A stretch of 64,000 nucleotides of DNA, from positions 3,348,001 through 3,412,000 of the forward strand of contig NZ_CP009285.1 in assembly GCF_000758665.1 (NCBI RefSeq), written 5' to 3'. Below are positions 57,555 to 63,118 of this stretch, in pieces. The notes under the pieces were generated by a model. It worked only from the letters and a program-made list of their open reading frames with translations, ran no database searches and had not been told where the DNA came from. Both the position numbers and the translations under genes were made by a program. This DNA comes from Paenibacillus borealis. Lineage in GTDB: Bacteria > Bacillota > Bacilli > Paenibacillales > Paenibacillaceae. Every line of letters starts with the position of its first letter. The stretch's first letter is position 1.

Positions 57555-58046
57555 TTGGGGAGAAAATGGCGGAATATCGTACTTATAGCTGTGGTCTGTC
57601 TTGTTCTTGGCGGGGGAGTGTTGTATCTGTATGGGGGTTCTGATTCTGGCTCTGCAGTACACAGGCTGCGGCTTGACAATGAAGAACCGGCGAAATATTT
57701 GCAGGGAATGGACGTGCTAACTCTGGATCAAATGGAGTTGTCGCTTGGCCATCAGAGCCAGCCTGACGGGTACATCAGTATCCATAATCATTCGGAGATC
57801 TTGTGGAAGAAACCGGTTACGATTCCGGCTGGAGATGGACAGCTGATCAAATTTACACAGGGAGGGAGTGCTGTATTTCCGGCTCCTGAGGTTATTTATT
57901 ATTGGCTGTGTATTCAGCGTCCAGGCAAGCATACGGAGGATGAACTGGTAACTTACTATATTGAAGCCAAAGTACTTGGAGAAGATGAAGATGCTGCGGA
58001 AGACAAGCTGCTGAAGCTTGCGGAGAACTGGGAGGTTCCGGATTGA
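57555..58046 (+). CDS. Hypothetical membrane-anchored protein
   Basis: A 163-residue protein with a signal-anchor helix at about 7-27 and a polar extracytoplasmic domain; no family recognised. The start is TTG at 57555 with GGGAAAGG about ten bases upstream. It is the last gene with the ordinary base composition before the AT-rich island begins near 58060. Confidence 0.6.
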   Translation: MGRKWRNIVLIAVVCLVLGGGVLYLYGGSDSGSAVHRLRLDNEEPAKYLQGMDVLTLDQMELSLGHQSQPDGYISIHNHSEILWKKPVTIPAGDGQLIKFTQGGSAVFPAPEVIYYWLCIQRPGKHTEDELVTYYIEAKVLGEDEDAAEDKLLKLAENWEVPD

Positions 58047-58219
58047 GCAATATACGTTGTCTGGTCTAGAAATATCTGAGTGGTGAAGATAAGTCAAATT
58101 AGTTAATTTTTTGTCGGTAATTGTTGTATTTCCATGGATTATTTTAAGAATTGAGGAGGATGGTGGGAATGAGGTGGCGAATATGTAGTTTTGAAAATGA
58201 GTCTGGTTCATGTTTGAAG

Positions 58220-58299: not shown

Positions 58300-58326
58300 C
58301 CAAATAACTACGAATTATTTGGAGGT
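58300..58326 (+). repeat. Left core site (27 nt), inverted relative to right copy
   Basis: Built as CCAAATAA - CTACGAA - TTATTTGGAGGT: 8 bases of outer arm, 7-base asymmetric spacer, 12 bases of inner arm. All 27 bases match the reverse complement of the right copy. The inner arm's GGAGG is also the ribosome binding site of the SHMT-like gene. Arms around a short spacer are the layout of a tyrosine-recombinase crossover site. Confidence 0.9.
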
Positions 58327-58331
58327 AAATG

Positions 58332-59570
58332 ATGTATTTATTAAATGGATTTCTTGGAGAAAAGTATCAACGAGTAAACAAAATAATTGATTCCTATCAT
58401 TCTGTTCAAAATAATTACATAAATATGGAGGCTTGCTGTAGTTATCCTTTCGAAAGTGTCATAGACGCACAAAGATATCCCATTTTCACATTGCCAACAG
58501 AAGGCGTAAGTGGATCAAGATTTTTTCCAGCATTTGAATGTATCGAGGATATTGATATTTATTCCGAAGAACTTGTAAGAACACTCTTCGATTTAGATAC
58601 TAATTATAATGTTACAACTCAACCTCATTCCGGTACTCAAGCCAATCAAATTGTGTATAACGCGGTTTTATCAGAAAATGATGTTGTTCTGAGTTTAAGC
58701 CCTAAAGATGGCGGTCACATCTCTCACAATAAAATATCAAAAAATCAAAATAAAGTAATAAATTATCACCTCACTCCTGAATTTGAATTTAATTATGATG
58801 AAATTGAAGAGCTAACTCAAAAAAACAAGCCTAAACTAATAATTGTTGGAGCTTCCTCCTATCCATTACAAATTGATTACAATAGAATTGCTCTAATAGC
58901 CCATAAGTATAATGCCTTCTTATTAGCCGATATATGTCACACTGCTTTATATGTTCTTGGGAAGACTTATCCTGATGTATTTCCCCATGCTGACTTTGTA
59001 ACATTCACTATGGATAAAACCTTAAGAGGACCACAAGGTGGAATCCTTATATATAAATGTGAATTTAGCAAATTAATAGCATATTCAATTTTCCCTATTT
59101 CACAAGGGGGGCCCCTTCAATCCCTTCAATTTGCAAAAATGATTGCACTGGTTGAACTAAGCTCAATTAATCTGGAAAATTATGCAAAATTGGTACAAGA
59201 CAATTCTAAAATTATATGCAAAAAATTAGTTGAAAGAAATATAACTGTTGTAACTGGGACTTCAAATACTCACTTAATCCTAATTGATGTCAGAGCTTTA
59301 AAAACAACAGGGAATTTAGTAGAATCAAGATTTTATGAAAATAATGTTCTCGTAAATAAGAATTTAATACCCGGCGATCAAACCTCTCCTGATATAACTT
59401 CAGGTATTCGATTAGGCACTGTTTGTATAAGCAACCTAAACTATTCTAATGAAGATGTGACTCTTCTCGCGGAAATAATTGCAAACATACTTCTCAATCC
59501 AGCAATTCAAAATGAAGGAATACATTATTTAGTTGAAAAATATCATAAAACCATTAATATCTCCAATTAG
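58332..59570 (+). CDS. Divergent serine hydroxymethyltransferase-like PLP enzyme
   Basis: A 412-residue fold-type I PLP enzyme aligned over its full length with SHMT. It keeps Q-P-H-S-G-T-Q-A-N, G-G-H, G-A-S-S-Y-P, A-D-I-C-H, the PLP lysine Lys229 in D-K-T-L-R-G-P-Q-G-G, S-Q-G-G-P-L and S-G-I-R-L-G-T. It differs at key places: the residue before the lysine is Asp (His in SHMT), and the Y-A-E-G-Y-P-G-R-R-Y-Y loop reads L-P-T-E-G-V-S-G-S-R-F-F, losing tyrosines used in catalysis and folate binding. Thus a folate-linked serine/glycine role is doubtful; an aldolase- or other PLP reaction is possible. Codon use is AT-rich, unlike the flanks. ATG at 58332 is six bases after GGAGG (ATG at 58329 is only three). 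Confidence 0.82.
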   Translation: MYLLNGFLGEKYQRVNKIIDSYHSVQNNYINMEACCSYPFESVIDAQRYPIFTLPTEGVSGSRFFPAFECIEDIDIYSEELVRTLFDLDTNYNVTTQPHSGTQANQIVYNAVLSENDVVLSLSPKDGGHISHNKISKNQNKVINYHLTPEFEFNYDEIEELTQKNKPKLIIVGASSYPLQIDYNRIALIAHKYNAFLLADICHTALYVLGKTYPDVFPHADFVTFTMDKTLRGPQGGILIYKCEFSKLIAYSIFPISQGGPLQSLQFAKMIALVELSSINLENYAKLVQDNSKIICKKLVERNITVVTGTSNTHLILIDVRALKTTGNLVESRFYENNVLVNKNLIPGDQTSPDITSGIRLGTVCISNLNYSNEDVTLLAEIIANILLNPAIQNEGIHYLVEKYHKTINISN

Positions 59571-61911
59571 GAGATAAACTTAGTGACATTGGTAAGTCTA
59601 AACCGTCCAAATGAACATTTACAAAAATCTCAAAACAGGTTAAATTTCTTTCGAGATTCTTGTCAATATAGTATTCTCTGGGATATTCAGTAATACTAAG
59701 ATTTAAAGCTAATTCTATGCTATACAGATTGTAAACGACTTGAAATCTCACCCAAGGATCTTTAGTTATTATCGAATTATTATACATTTGCAAAATTTCT
59801 TGATAAACAACTTGAAGGGGAATTACTTTAGAATTCAAGTCAATTATTAGTCGATTGAGTTGTAAAATAATATGGTCTAAAGAAAGGCTCTGAGGTACTG
59901 TCTCTAGAGCCTTATTGGTATAAGTTTTGGCTCCTTCAAGATTTCTTCTTAAGAATTCAAGCACACCCAAATTACAGAAAACTTCAAAAATTTCGTTTGA
60001 ATTTATTGTTTTATGTATATTTAGTGCCTCAGTTAGATAATATATAGCTTCTGAAAACTCTTGATTCCAGATAGTTATCACACCAAGGTTATTCAGAACA
60101 GTTGCTCTTTCAAATAATGTCCCGGAATTAATAAAAAACTTAAGTGTCCGTTTTAAATTGTAAACCGCCTCATCATAGGAAAAATAGTGCGCTGAATTCC
60201 TTAAAATTAAATAAAACCATTTATCGAAATCTTCCGCATCTAGGATCCCTCTTACCAATTGTTGGGCTTCAATATCCTTACCAACATGCTGTAATATATT
60301 TAGCTGATAAAGTAGAGTTTCGTTATTAGAAGGAATGTATGTTAGTTCTTCTAAAGCCATTTCGAAATCATAGGATTGAGTTAAAAATTTCACTTCGTAA
60401 ATTCTGTATTTATTATATATACTAGGTTTTTTTTGCTTTAATATATTCAATAAATTTATTCCTAAAGAAAATTCCGAAGTTTTTTGAATTGAATCCAGTA
60501 TTTTTCTCAAACATATTTCAGGAAGATGTTCAATCAAATCCAACGTCTGCTTATATATACTCACTATGTAGTAGTAAGCACATCGTTCATATTCAATTTT
60601 AATAAGATCTATTAAATAATCCATCTTTTCTAAAAGTTGCTTACTATTATATAAACCAATAACACAATGTAAAATGTAAACATAATCCTTATCGTGAATC
60701 TTATGAGCAATTAGATTTTCTAGAGTAGCTTTTATACTGTTATAAAATTCAACAAATTCATCCTCGTTAGCAATTTTATTCAAAGACAAGGTTATTTTTT
60801 CATGAGCGGGTTTTAAGAGATCATGATTAACACTGTTTACAACAATATAACCAAGTGCAATAAGTTTTTGTAATTCATGTAATAATAGATCATCACTATT
60901 TAATACTAAAATATCATTTAATATTTTTGATACATATTCAATTTTTAAGCCTGCAGGAAACATAGCAGAAATTAATACCAAATATCTTTGAATTTCAGGC
61001 ATTAAAAGTAAAACTTGTTTCATTGAACGTGTTTTACTAATACTTAAAGTGCCTTCAATTATAGATTTATGGTTATCTTTTAAGTACAATTCAATTTCTT
61101 TCAAATTCCCTGAAGTTTTACTGTAGCAATCGTTGGCTATAGTTTCATTTGAAGTATTACTGATGTACATCTTGTCTAACAATTTAAGGATCTCTTCAGC
61201 TTTGAATTTAGATAATTCAATAGATTTTCGATCATTCCCAAAGCATAACGGCAGATTGAGTTGTATGTTGTCAGTCCTATAAATTGAAATAAATGAAATA
61301 TTTTTTTTGATTCTCTGAAGATAAGTTTCAAAAAGAACCTTAATATTATTTTGCATAAATTGATAATTATCAATTGATAAAATAATTTTTTTTGTTTTAG
61401 AAACAAAGCTTAGATATTCCCCAATGTTATCTGCCATATCGATAACGTTATTATTTTCATTTTTCTCACTATTTTCTCCCTTTAAAAGAGTGCTCAGTGT
61501 CGAGCCGTACGTAGGGATCGCTGAAATACTTTCAACTACTACTTGAAAAAGTCTTTTGGCAGCCCCTTTTCTCCACATTTTTCTAGTCATAAATGATTTA
61601 AATGATTGTTTTTCACCTATGCTCATTAATGGATCTTCATTAGATACAATTGGATTCCAAACATTGAATAAGAATATTTCAAAAAAAGAAGAAGTTGATA
61701 ATAAATCAGCATTTAAGTCTAAATAAATCACATAAAATTCCGAATTAGAAACATATTCTTTTAAAATTTTCTTTATTAAGGATGTTTTCCCACAGCCCGA
61801 ATCACCACTTACGATAATATTATTGCTTTGTAAATTACAATGATCTATTTTCTCTTTTATTTTTCTTTCTTCATCTGCACGTAATATAAATGGAATAGTT
61901 AATTCTGTCAT
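59554..61911 (-). CDS. STAND-type ATPase with C-terminal TPR region
   Basis: A 785-residue protein. Walker A is G-D-S-G-C-G-K-T-S (36-44, Lys42), Walker B is I-I-L-S-I-D (Asp181), followed by a winged-helix-like region (about 290-400) and a long helical repeat part (about 400-760), with clear TPRs near 600-670 (N-N-L-G-V-I-T-I-W...N-L-G-V-L-E-F-L). This is the order of STAND switches such as regulators and some anti-phage sensors. No effector domain is evident at the N-terminus. It starts at ATG 61911, five bases after AGAGGTG, 32 bases after the recombinase stop, so both are probably one transcript. Its end overlaps the SHMT-like gene by 17 bases. AT-rich. Confidence 0.8.
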   Translation of the reverse strand: MTELTIPFILRADEERKIKEKIDHCNLQSNNIIVSGDSGCGKTSLIKKILKEYVSNSEFYVIYLDLNADLLSTSSFFEIFLFNVWNPIVSNEDPLMSIGEKQSFKSFMTRKMWRKGAAKRLFQVVVESISAIPTYGSTLSTLLKGENSEKNENNNVIDMADNIGEYLSFVSKTKKIILSIDNYQFMQNNIKVLFETYLQRIKKNISFISIYRTDNIQLNLPLCFGNDRKSIELSKFKAEEILKLLDKMYISNTSNETIANDCYSKTSGNLKEIELYLKDNHKSIIEGTLSISKTRSMKQVLLLMPEIQRYLVLISAMFPAGLKIEYVSKILNDILVLNSDDLLLHELQKLIALGYIVVNSVNHDLLKPAHEKITLSLNKIANEDEFVEFYNSIKATLENLIAHKIHDKDYVYILHCVIGLYNSKQLLEKMDYLIDLIKIEYERCAYYYIVSIYKQTLDLIEHLPEICLRKILDSIQKTSEFSLGINLLNILKQKKPSIYNKYRIYEVKFLTQSYDFEMALEELTYIPSNNETLLYQLNILQHVGKDIEAQQLVRGILDAEDFDKWFYLILRNSAHYFSYDEAVYNLKRTLKFFINSGTLFERATVLNNLGVITIWNQEFSEAIYYLTEALNIHKTINSNEIFEVFCNLGVLEFLRRNLEGAKTYTNKALETVPQSLSLDHIILQLNRLIIDLNSKVIPLQVVYQEILQMYNNSIITKDPWVRFQVVYNLYSIELALNLSITEYPREYYIDKNLERNLTCFEIFVNVHLDGLDLPMSLSLSPNWRY

Positions 61912-61922
61912 GACACCTCTTT

Positions 61923-61957
61923 AGACCTCCAAATAATTCGTAGTTATTTGGAGGTCT
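61923..61957 (-). repeat. Right core site, 14-7-14 palindrome
   Basis: Arms AGACCTCCAAATAA and TTATTTGGAGGTCT around the 7-base spacer TTCGTAG (plus-strand reading), perfect over 14 pairs. Its central 27 bases equal the left site in inverted orientation. The recombinase stop codon (61944-61946) lies in the outer arm, so inversion within the spacer would leave that gene intact. Confidence 0.92.
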
Positions 61958-62888
61958 CAAGCCGGTTGCGCGGATTAAATTGAGAAAGTACATCTTTCTT
62001 TCGTTTTACTGATACTTCGGTATATATTTCTGTGGTACTCACGCTAGAATGACCTAAGATTTCCTGGACAGCTCGTAGGTCAGCTCCATTCTCCAGTAGC
62101 TGGGTAGCAAATGAATGACGGAGATAGTGTGGGGTTGATTTTTCATTAATACAGGCCAGCTTTCTGTACTTAGCAAATATATCTTCAACACCATAAATGG
62201 ATAGAGCTTGACCATATTTGTTAAGAAAAAGAGTATCGCTTTGTGGACGGAATAACTCCCTTACAGCTAACCAATTGTTGAGTTTGTCAATGAGCTCAGT
62301 GCTGGATAAATATAACAACCTCTCTTTGCGTCCCTTTCCAAATATAATAACTACTTGACTTTTTAAATCAATATCTTCCAGTTGAATTTGTGCAAGTTCA
62401 CCAATCCGGATTCCAGTTGAAAATAACAAATCGATAATGGCATCATTACGAATAGATAAGCGGGTACGGAAAGGGGAAGCAAAATGTTCTCTGTCCTTCA
62501 GAGGTGATTGCAATAATCGTTCTATTTCTTCAACTGCTAGCGTTTTTGGAATTCGTTTTGCAGTTTTGAATTTTCTTCCGAAGTTGTTGAGTGGGGATTG
62601 GTCAATCCAGCTTTTCTGGACTAAGAATAAAAAGAAAGCTTTAAACGTTATGTATTTTCTCTTAATTGTGGAATCCTTAAGGGTTCCTGTGCTGTTGAAG
62701 CTGTGAAAGTAGCTATGCAGAATATCGCTTGTAATTGCCTCTACTTTATTTTCTTTCAGCCAGTTATGAAGTCTATTTAAGTCTGATACATAAGCCTTGA
62801 TAGATTTAGGTGAAAGGTTTTTTTCAATAATTAGAAAAGATATGTATTTTTCAATATATTCATCTAATGCTGAAACGGAAATTGCCAA
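61944..62888 (-). CDS. XerC/XerD-like tyrosine recombinase
   Basis: A 314-residue tyrosine recombinase with an N-terminal SAM-like core-binding domain (about 7-95) and a catalytic domain. The active-site set is complete: Arg161 in G-I-R-I-G-E-L, Lys185 in G-K-G-R-K-E-R, His254 and Arg257 in H-Y-L-R-H-S-F-A, His280 in L-G-H-S-S and nucleophile Tyr289 in E-I-Y-T. No arm-binding domain is present, so it is a simple Xer-like type. The start is TTG at 62888, eight bases after AGGAGG. Its last codons form the outer arm of the right core site. The site-recombinase closeness suggests it acts on these sites. Confidence 0.92.
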   Translation of the reverse strand: MAISVSALDEYIEKYISFLIIEKNLSPKSIKAYVSDLNRLHNWLKENKVEAITSDILHSYFHSFNSTGTLKDSTIKRKYITFKAFFLFLVQKSWIDQSPLNNFGRKFKTAKRIPKTLAVEEIERLLQSPLKDREHFASPFRTRLSIRNDAIIDLLFSTGIRIGELAQIQLEDIDLKSQVVIIFGKGRKERLLYLSSTELIDKLNNWLAVRELFRPQSDTLFLNKYGQALSIYGVEDIFAKYRKLACINEKSTPHYLRHSFATQLLENGADLRAVQEILGHSSVSTTEIYTEVSVKRKKDVLSQFNPRNRLETSK

Positions 62889-63118
62889 TGATATTCCTCC
62901 TGATGTTTAAGTATCTTTAAAATGGATGTTCAAAGTATAACAAAGCCTTTCAGTAAAGGGGGAAATAAGAAATATATATTTCAATAATCTAATAGACGAA
63001 TATGAATGTTGCAGCATTTAAGTCTTCCATCCCTTATGTATGATTGGATTTTATTATGTACAATCTGTGAACTGTAGTATATTGGACTTAGATTCGTCTG
63101 ATGAGGGAGGCATATTCT

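Follow-up and report, generated by a model that had tools for sequence, protein, structure and literature searches.

Two complete genes lie tail to tail between two inverted copies of one short sequence, and a tyrosine recombinase gene reads up to one of these copies. The question raised by this arrangement is what the recombinase does to the genes: turn them over, replace them, or both. The locus lies in a 64,000-nucleotide (nt) stretch of Paenibacillus borealis DNA (NZ_CP009285.1, positions 3,348,001 to 3,412,000), referred to here as the window, and was compared with related loci, here called platforms, in other Paenibacillaceae. The reading favored in this study, with a probability of roughly 0.7, is that of an inversion-and-exchange platform, i.e., an immune module that can be both inverted and exchanged as a block. 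The parts of the locus are the following (positions in the window):

58300-58326, plus strand: left recombination site, a 23-nt dyad (58300-58322) followed by AGGT; its inner arm is the GGAGGT ribosome-binding sequence of the next gene
58329-59570, plus strand: left-position gene for a serine hydroxymethyltransferase (SHMT)-like pyridoxal phosphate (PLP) enzyme of 413 amino acids (aa) (Pfam PF00464, E 6.8e-75; PDB 4mso, E 1.2e-73)
59554-61911, minus strand: right-position gene for a STAND-type P-loop ATPase with tetratricopeptide (TPR) repeats, 785 aa (weak AAA/TPR Pfam matches under the cut-off; weak PADLOC match to mad8, E 1.1e-6)
61925-61951, minus strand: right recombination site, the 27-nt core with near-perfect 18-nt arms (61919-61961); its outer arm ACCTCC is able to pair with the GGAGGT of the downstream gene
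61944-62888, minus strand: gene for a XerC/XerD-like tyrosine recombinase of 314 aa that starts with TTG and has its stop codon within the right site (Pfam PF00589, E 5.8e-43; PDB XerD 1a0p, E 3e-39)

The two sites hold an exact 27-nt core in inverted orientation, with 3598 nt separating the copies. Both consist of CCAAATAA, a 7-nt asymmetric spacer and TTATTTGG, with AGGT facing inside. At the right site, the arms of the dyad are lengthened to 18 nt and are 94% complementary (61919-61936 / 61944-61961); at the left site, the match of the outer arm is limited to 8 nt. Both genes read inward, starting 3 nt (SHMT-like) and 13 nt (STAND) inside the sites, and their 3' ends overlap by 17 nt. An initial annotation of this DNA had described the inverted core with its asymmetric spacer, tail-to-tail genes that each begin at a site, and a recombinase reading toward the right site with its stop codon in the outer arm; sequence comparison and the open reading frame (ORF) coordinates bear out this layout. 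The same annotation had raised the objection that the core might be a frequent translation leader. This candidate was rejected, since the 23-nt dyad with up to two mismatches occurs at only two places in the entire genome (8,156,808 bases, single contig), namely, these two sites. With up to three mismatches, there are two matches in the window, whereas shuffled sequences average 0.27 and reach this number in 3 of 100 cases. By itself, the dyad is therefore moderately rare, and the case is carried by the identity of the 27-nt cores and by the uniqueness of the pair in the genome.

Two inverted sites adjoining a recombinase gene are a feature of invertible phase-variation elements. The recombinase scores 147.1 bits against the Phage_integrase model PF00589 (cut-off 27.1), and the known R-H-x-x-R-H-Y motifs fall in invariant columns of a 13-row recombinase alignment. 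It remains below the NCBIfam cut-offs for the housekeeping proteins XerC (250.7 of 335.15 bits) and XerD (242.5 of 329.6 bits), and below that for integron integrases (TIGR02249; 115 of 265 bits).

The alignment was used to search 394 Paenibacillaceae genomes from 19 genera, taken as one genome per species. The recombinase was found in 34 of these, spread over 5 genera. A separate search of the genus gave 11 of 100 genomes (E <= 1e-60), and in a class-wide sample it was present in 8 of 398 genomes, all from its own family. A site lies at the 3' end of the recombinase gene in all 34 platforms (two clipped by a contig end), and an inverted partner site follows at a distance of 1.8-4.8 kb in 25. 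For the other nine, the contig stops 16-237 nt beyond the recombinase match; 21 of the 34 genomes are drafts of at least 10 contigs, and nine of these drafts are broken at this very spot. Four spacer types exist in all, and both sites of one platform share the spacer in 25 of 25 cases. Among the 24 singly resolved platforms the enzyme gene is on the right in 17 and its partner in seven, so both states are common.

Relatives also hold the block in flipped order, as the initial annotation had proposed to look for: the inverted order is found within three genomes and between sister species. The assembly of Paenibacillus sp. IHBB 10380 (genome G060) includes, besides the chromosome, a record of 17,061 bases that is labeled a plasmid. 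Its 3596-bp cassette is inverted between the chromosome and the second copy, with 100% identity within the cassette and 99.9-100% in the flanks. The record (NZ_CP010977.1, 1-17061; L033, L117), named 'plasmid unnamed', duplicates a chromosomal region with the cassette inverted, and is probably an assembly by-product rather than a plasmid. A scaffold of G386 contains a 2263-bp cassette in both orientations, joined over 100 N, and repeats 134 nt from the 3' end of the recombinase gene as well as 126 nt from the left flank; this apparent inverted duplication of a Thoeris cassette (L084) looks like a scaffolding artifact that has recorded both orientations. For G388, the TIR gene of the cassette follows the recombinase on one contig, and another contig joins the left flank to TIR and also to ThsA. 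Five more drafts (G162, G234, G325, G390, and G008) are cut at the sites into a left flank, a stand-alone cassette contig of 3569-3870 bp and a right flank, as expected of a population with mixed orientations. Between species, a shared cassette is inverted in G245/G227 (99.1% identity vs 94.8 and 93.0% in the flanks), G192/G217 (96.2% vs 85.7 and 85.0%), and G228/G227 (85.9% vs 80.5 and 91.7%). Inversion of the block within the family is established by these sequences and, judging from the relatives, flipping very likely takes place in the P. borealis isolate too.

Whole-cassette exchange at the sites is the larger point; it adds to what had been annotated before, as do the varied cargo, the relatives with Thoeris genes, and the fixed difference between the two sites. 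Twenty-four resolved loci were compared pairwise (G386 and the second G060 copy omitted), taking pairs as similar when the recombinase-side flanks were at least 78% identical and cassettes as matching at a blastn E of 1e-20 over more than 200 nt. The 36 similar-flank pairs, which are not independent of one another, comprise two with the same cassette in the same orientation, three with it inverted, and 31 without a blastn match between the cassettes, some of these 'unrelated' cassettes having protein families in common. In the 31 pairs, homology on the recombinase side stops at -7 to +32 nt, counted from the end of the site; in 29 it resumes on the far side at -33 to +8 nt relative to where the other site starts, and two have no far-side match. 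Such pairs include G246/G228 (flanks 97.4 and 95.9% identical), G217/G227 (96.6 and 96.3%), and G192/G193 (95.7 and 92.4%), the last with an ATP-grasp vs a Thoeris cassette. Related cargo also occurs beside more distant recombinases: in G008/G073 a KamA-like protein is 82% and a STAND protein 72% identical vs 59% for the recombinases, and in G383/G386 TIR is 82% and ThsA 76% identical vs 57%. When the 14 cargo labels are mapped onto a tree of all 34 recombinases, they require 26 changes (minimum possible 13) vs a shuffled mean of 26.0, with 132 of 200 shuffles as low; three platforms were labeled unknown in this run (G384, where a TIR start was recognized later, and G026 and G210, where an ATP-grasp start was). 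Agreement of the cargo with the recombinase tree is no better than that of shuffled labels. Whole-cassette exchange is established as a pattern in the compared loci, and site-specific rather than homologous recombination is probably its mechanism.

The cargo usually consists of an enzyme and a larger partner, often of the STAND/TPR type. Over the 34 platforms, an ATP-grasp protein with a large partner is found in 19 (two from the gene start only) and Thoeris in five (G193, G383, G386, and G388, with G384 assigned by its TIR start only). Two platforms each carry a KamA-like radical S-adenosylmethionine (SAM) protein with a STAND protein, an SHMT-like with a STAND-like protein (the window's genome, G000, and G234), a prenyl synthase with a membrane protein, a methyltransferase with a GNAT/membrane-like protein, or an aminotransferase with a pentapeptide protein; the radical-SAM, GNAT, and membrane descriptions are based partly on reading the sequences. 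The large partner of G192 is one of several without any family match. In G182 (L071), the large partner is in three pieces (212, 555, and 83 codons) and looks broken, and its ATP-grasp partner is whole. The second SHMT-like and STAND-like cassette (G234, L091, 17-3840) comes from a different genus; its SHMT-like protein is about 25% identical to that of the window, and the large partners have no detectable whole-protein relation.

An immune link is established only as the presence of Thoeris genes, and for the rest of the cargo it would be an extension from these. PADLOC identifies ThsA in G193 (E 4.9e-145) and G383 (E 3.3e-97), with SIR2 and STALD domains and a TIR partner; these TIR partners match ThsB weakly (4.3e-6 and 3.1e-8) and PDC-S66 more strongly (1.6e-12 and 2.5e-18). 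Thoeris in G386 and G388 was assigned by homology. The window's own cassette contains no Thoeris genes, its cargo being the SHMT-like and STAND pair. The SHMT-like protein scores 252.6 bits against the Pfam SHMT model (cut-off 27), its PLP-lysine motif FVTFTMDKTLRGPQGG aligns with FVTTTTHKSLRGPRGG of 4mso, and it falls short of the housekeeping GlyA model (NCBIfam PRK00011; 305.6 bits, cut-off 335). PADLOC gave no Avs match for the STAND protein, whose P-loop near residue 38 leaves no space for an N-terminal effector. A structure prediction of this protein from one sequence was unusable, with a mean predicted local distance difference test (pLDDT) score of 38. The model of the G245 STAND protein (mean pLDDT 76.4) has its best match in the STAND-TPR protein 6mfv (E 1.4e-10), with further matches of low TM-score to, among others, Cdc6/ORC, Apaf-1 (4.6e-6), Avs3 (1.2e-5), Avs5 (5.2e-5), and the plant NLR RPP1 (9.9e-4), and it also resembles Avs4. 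On balance, an immune role of the window's SHMT/STAND pair is slightly favored.

The left and right positions differ in a constant manner. The right outer arm ends in ACCT (giving ACCTCC) in 25 of 25 measured platforms and the left one in a single platform (G358); the remaining nine right sites likewise read ACCTCC. Predicted accessibility of the Shine-Dalgarno (SD) sequence averages 0.01 at the right vs 0.41 at the left, and is lower at the right in all 25. Relative to the site, the recombinase stop lies at +8 (6 platforms), +5 (1), -10 (17) or -12 (1), i.e., at the hairpin or just before it. Counted from the site, the cargo start codons fall in each of the three frames (22/16/12 of 50), and translational fusion through the site was rejected for this reason. 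From the predicted hairpin, the chances are about even that the right gene is translationally coupled to the recombinase, the site acting as a gate; the competing interpretation is that the weaker left arm instead tunes recombinase binding.

Upstream of the left site, a candidate promoter was located:

58155-58182, plus strand: SigH-like promoter element of the left flank (AGGA at 58157, GAAT ending at 58182; core AGGA-N14,15-RNNGAAT), putative in function

Left flanks contain a conserved block that fits the SigH consensus, RNAGGAWWW-N11,12-RNNGAAT, with strict agreement in 20 of 33 flanks (shuffle mean 0.12). The core is present in 23 of 33 (shuffle mean 0.62), and the pattern lies upstream of none of the 34 recombinases. 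In a control search of the P. borealis genome, the strict pattern (11-nt spacing) was found 17 times and its reversed form six times. One occurrence lies 90 nt before spoVG, a classic SigH target; the other 16 are mostly within reading frames or were not linked to a gene by the filter. These results tip the balance modestly toward SigH control of the left position. Short leader reading frames with an SD sequence follow the SigH-like element in some left flanks (L028, L030, L032, and L034; e.g., MEVEDEYIF... in G073) and are not conserved in the window. A general promoter scan of the region found 22 promoters vs a shuffle mean of 27.3, which is not above chance. SigA scoring was largely uninformative: upstream of the recombinases, it found a shared TTCACA-17-AATAAT in 12 of 25 (3-18% of shuffles as high), and at the left G386 and G094 alone stand out. 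For the recombinase of the window, the top site of this home-made SigA score is:

62934-62939, minus strand: possible -10 element (TATACT after TGT) of the recombinase transcript; equaled by 17% of shuffles

Under the reading of an inversion-and-exchange platform, these elements would work together as follows. The dedicated XerC/D-like recombinase would act on both of the inverted sites. Inside a single DNA molecule, the block would flip and the tail-to-tail genes would trade places; between an incoming and a resident cassette, the same pair of sites would permit replacement of the two-gene block, with the recombinase and both flanks staying in place. The site provides the GGAGGT ribosome-binding sequence of whichever gene follows it. 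On the right, the fixed outer arm ACCTCC would bury this sequence in a hairpin just past the recombinase stop, and translation of the right gene would probably depend on ribosomes that open the hairpin as they complete the recombinase. On the left, the sequence would be freer and the gene would often stand behind the SigH-like promoter. A flip may thus decide which of the partners is produced freely and which one is coupled to the recombinase. Because Thoeris function requires both genes, a flip would be expected to shift the balance between the partners rather than to turn one of them off. The cargo, an enzyme and its partner, would most likely be immune in function.

Other explanations account for parts of these data. 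The initial annotation had proposed a whole-gene two-state switch, with transcription limited to the gene that follows the recombinase and the other gene silent. Its structural half stands, since a block of two complete genes does invert and the genes do change places with respect to the recombinase in relatives (G060, G386, G388, and sister species), and the low SigA scores at the left of most flanks agree with a silent gene. Expression confined to the recombinase-adjacent gene has less in its favor: possible promoters exist at both positions, with a conserved left leader and the SigH-like element in 23 of 33 flanks, each cargo gene has its own start in any of three frames and hence shows no fusion logic, Thoeris cargo needs both genes, and the buried ribosome-binding site is the right one, so that a plain switch of this kind is quite unlikely. 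A platform that serves cassette acquisition only, inversion being a neutral by-product of inverted sites and the genes working either way, would agree with the frequent turnover of whole cassettes and with the 17 enzyme-right and seven partner-right loci; it would also agree with a weaker left arm that serves recombinase binding. The fixed difference between the outer arms in 24 of 25 platforms and the near-constant distance of the recombinase stop from the hairpin suggest that position matters, and this explanation is rather doubtful.

The exchange itself might owe nothing to the sites, the recombinase only inverting the block and ordinary homologous recombination in the flanks replacing the cassettes; the flanks are often more than 90% identical between species with different cargo. 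In the pairs with unrelated cassettes, however, homology breaks off at the sites (-7 to +32 nt, and -33 to +8 nt on the far side) and not inside the flanks, and KamA-like and Thoeris cargo is shared beside recombinases only 57-59% identical; replacement by this route is unlikely. Finally, the second G060 copy filed as a plasmid and the G386 scaffold with its 100-N gap could suggest that copies in opposite orientation arose from misassembly at a 30-nt inverted repeat. Against this stand the independent contig breaks at the sites in nine drafts, five with whole stand-alone cassettes, and the sister species that differ in orientation with diverged flanks; moreover, a unique 30-nt repeat alone would presumably not break an assembly made with longer words. 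Assembly error is a very improbable source of the inversions.

Several observations weigh against the inversion-and-exchange platform or its parts. The window's genome is one contig in one orientation. On the recombinase tree, in which the tool flags long branches, the AGc and Thoeris labels are slightly clustered (18 and 48 of 500 shuffles as low, respectively), and the replaced blocks could have been moved by homologous recombination in the flanks. Predicted accessibility is also near 0 at the left sites of G060 and G358, and the right site of G064 has no GGAGGT. The left flank of the window contains the SigH core and does not meet the strict consensus, the core is missing from 10 of 33 left flanks, and the motif was picked after the conserved block had been seen, the matching flanks coming from few related clades. 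PADLOC matched nothing to the SHMT-like protein and gave merely the weak mad8 match for the STAND protein, and in 388 family genomes, with few candidates scored per genome, each of the two (the SHMT-like protein at E 1e-95) was found as its own copy only. An exclusive switch would, in addition, disable Thoeris.

RecV, Mpi, and FimB/E are tyrosine-recombinase inversion switches and share with this locus short inverted sites, reversible inversion and a recombinase gene adjoining the block. They differ in that here two whole genes flip without an evident promoter, promoters and flanks lie outside, and the cargo is replaced as a block. Integrons likewise have a chromosomally fixed tyrosine recombinase with interchangeable cargo, and some integron cassettes carry phage defense; an integron is an attC array, whereas here one two-gene cassette lies reversibly between inverted sites and the integrase models score under their cut-off. 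Shufflons and hsdS inversions also rearrange coding DNA by a recombinase, altering protein ends or specificity domains, whereas here complete genes move without frame fusion. Thoeris (ThsA/ThsB) itself, with ThsA (SIR2-SLOG) and a TIR partner, is the cargo of G193, G383, G386, and G388; unlike it, the genes here are convergent, overlapping and in an invertible block, and the window's cargo is SHMT and STAND. Laboratory recombinase-mediated cassette exchange also relies on two inverted sites that allow inversion and replacement, and the present locus would be its natural version, with exchange deduced from sequence patterns. Tentatively, these loci may form a distinct class of element: a chromosomal socket of a recombinase and two inverted sites that combines exchange with inversion, providing Paenibacillaceae with a phase-variable slot for interchangeable two-gene immune systems in which the site is both ribosome-binding sequence and translational gate.

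If this is true, SHMT+STAND, ATP-grasp+STAND, and KamA-like+STAND would be candidate new defense systems, as would aminotransferase+pentapeptide, prenyl synthase+membrane protein, and methyltransferase+membrane protein. A recombinase-run slot for changeable genes would then exist outside integrons and would flip as well as swap, and reading the DNA between the sites would be a simple route to candidate immune systems. It would also become testable whether defense is kept in two states that differ in sensor/effector balance, and whether this balance depends on growth phase or on translation of the recombinase.

The recombinase has 14 relatives in viral contigs (23-35% identity) and a best phage match at 37%; of the plasmid matches, one reaches 81.5%, being the misfiled G060 record, and the remaining ones are at most 37%. 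The STAND alignment gave no match in viral contigs and none in 299 genomes of the phylum, a sample that contained no known positive. A known RNA family in the region was rejected as a candidate: there was a single sub-threshold chance match, and the loci of five relatives gave a tRNA only. Between a TetR gene and the left flank lies a 163-aa ORF (57555-58046, plus strand) without a family match, which has a 53% identical relative at the equivalent place in G073.

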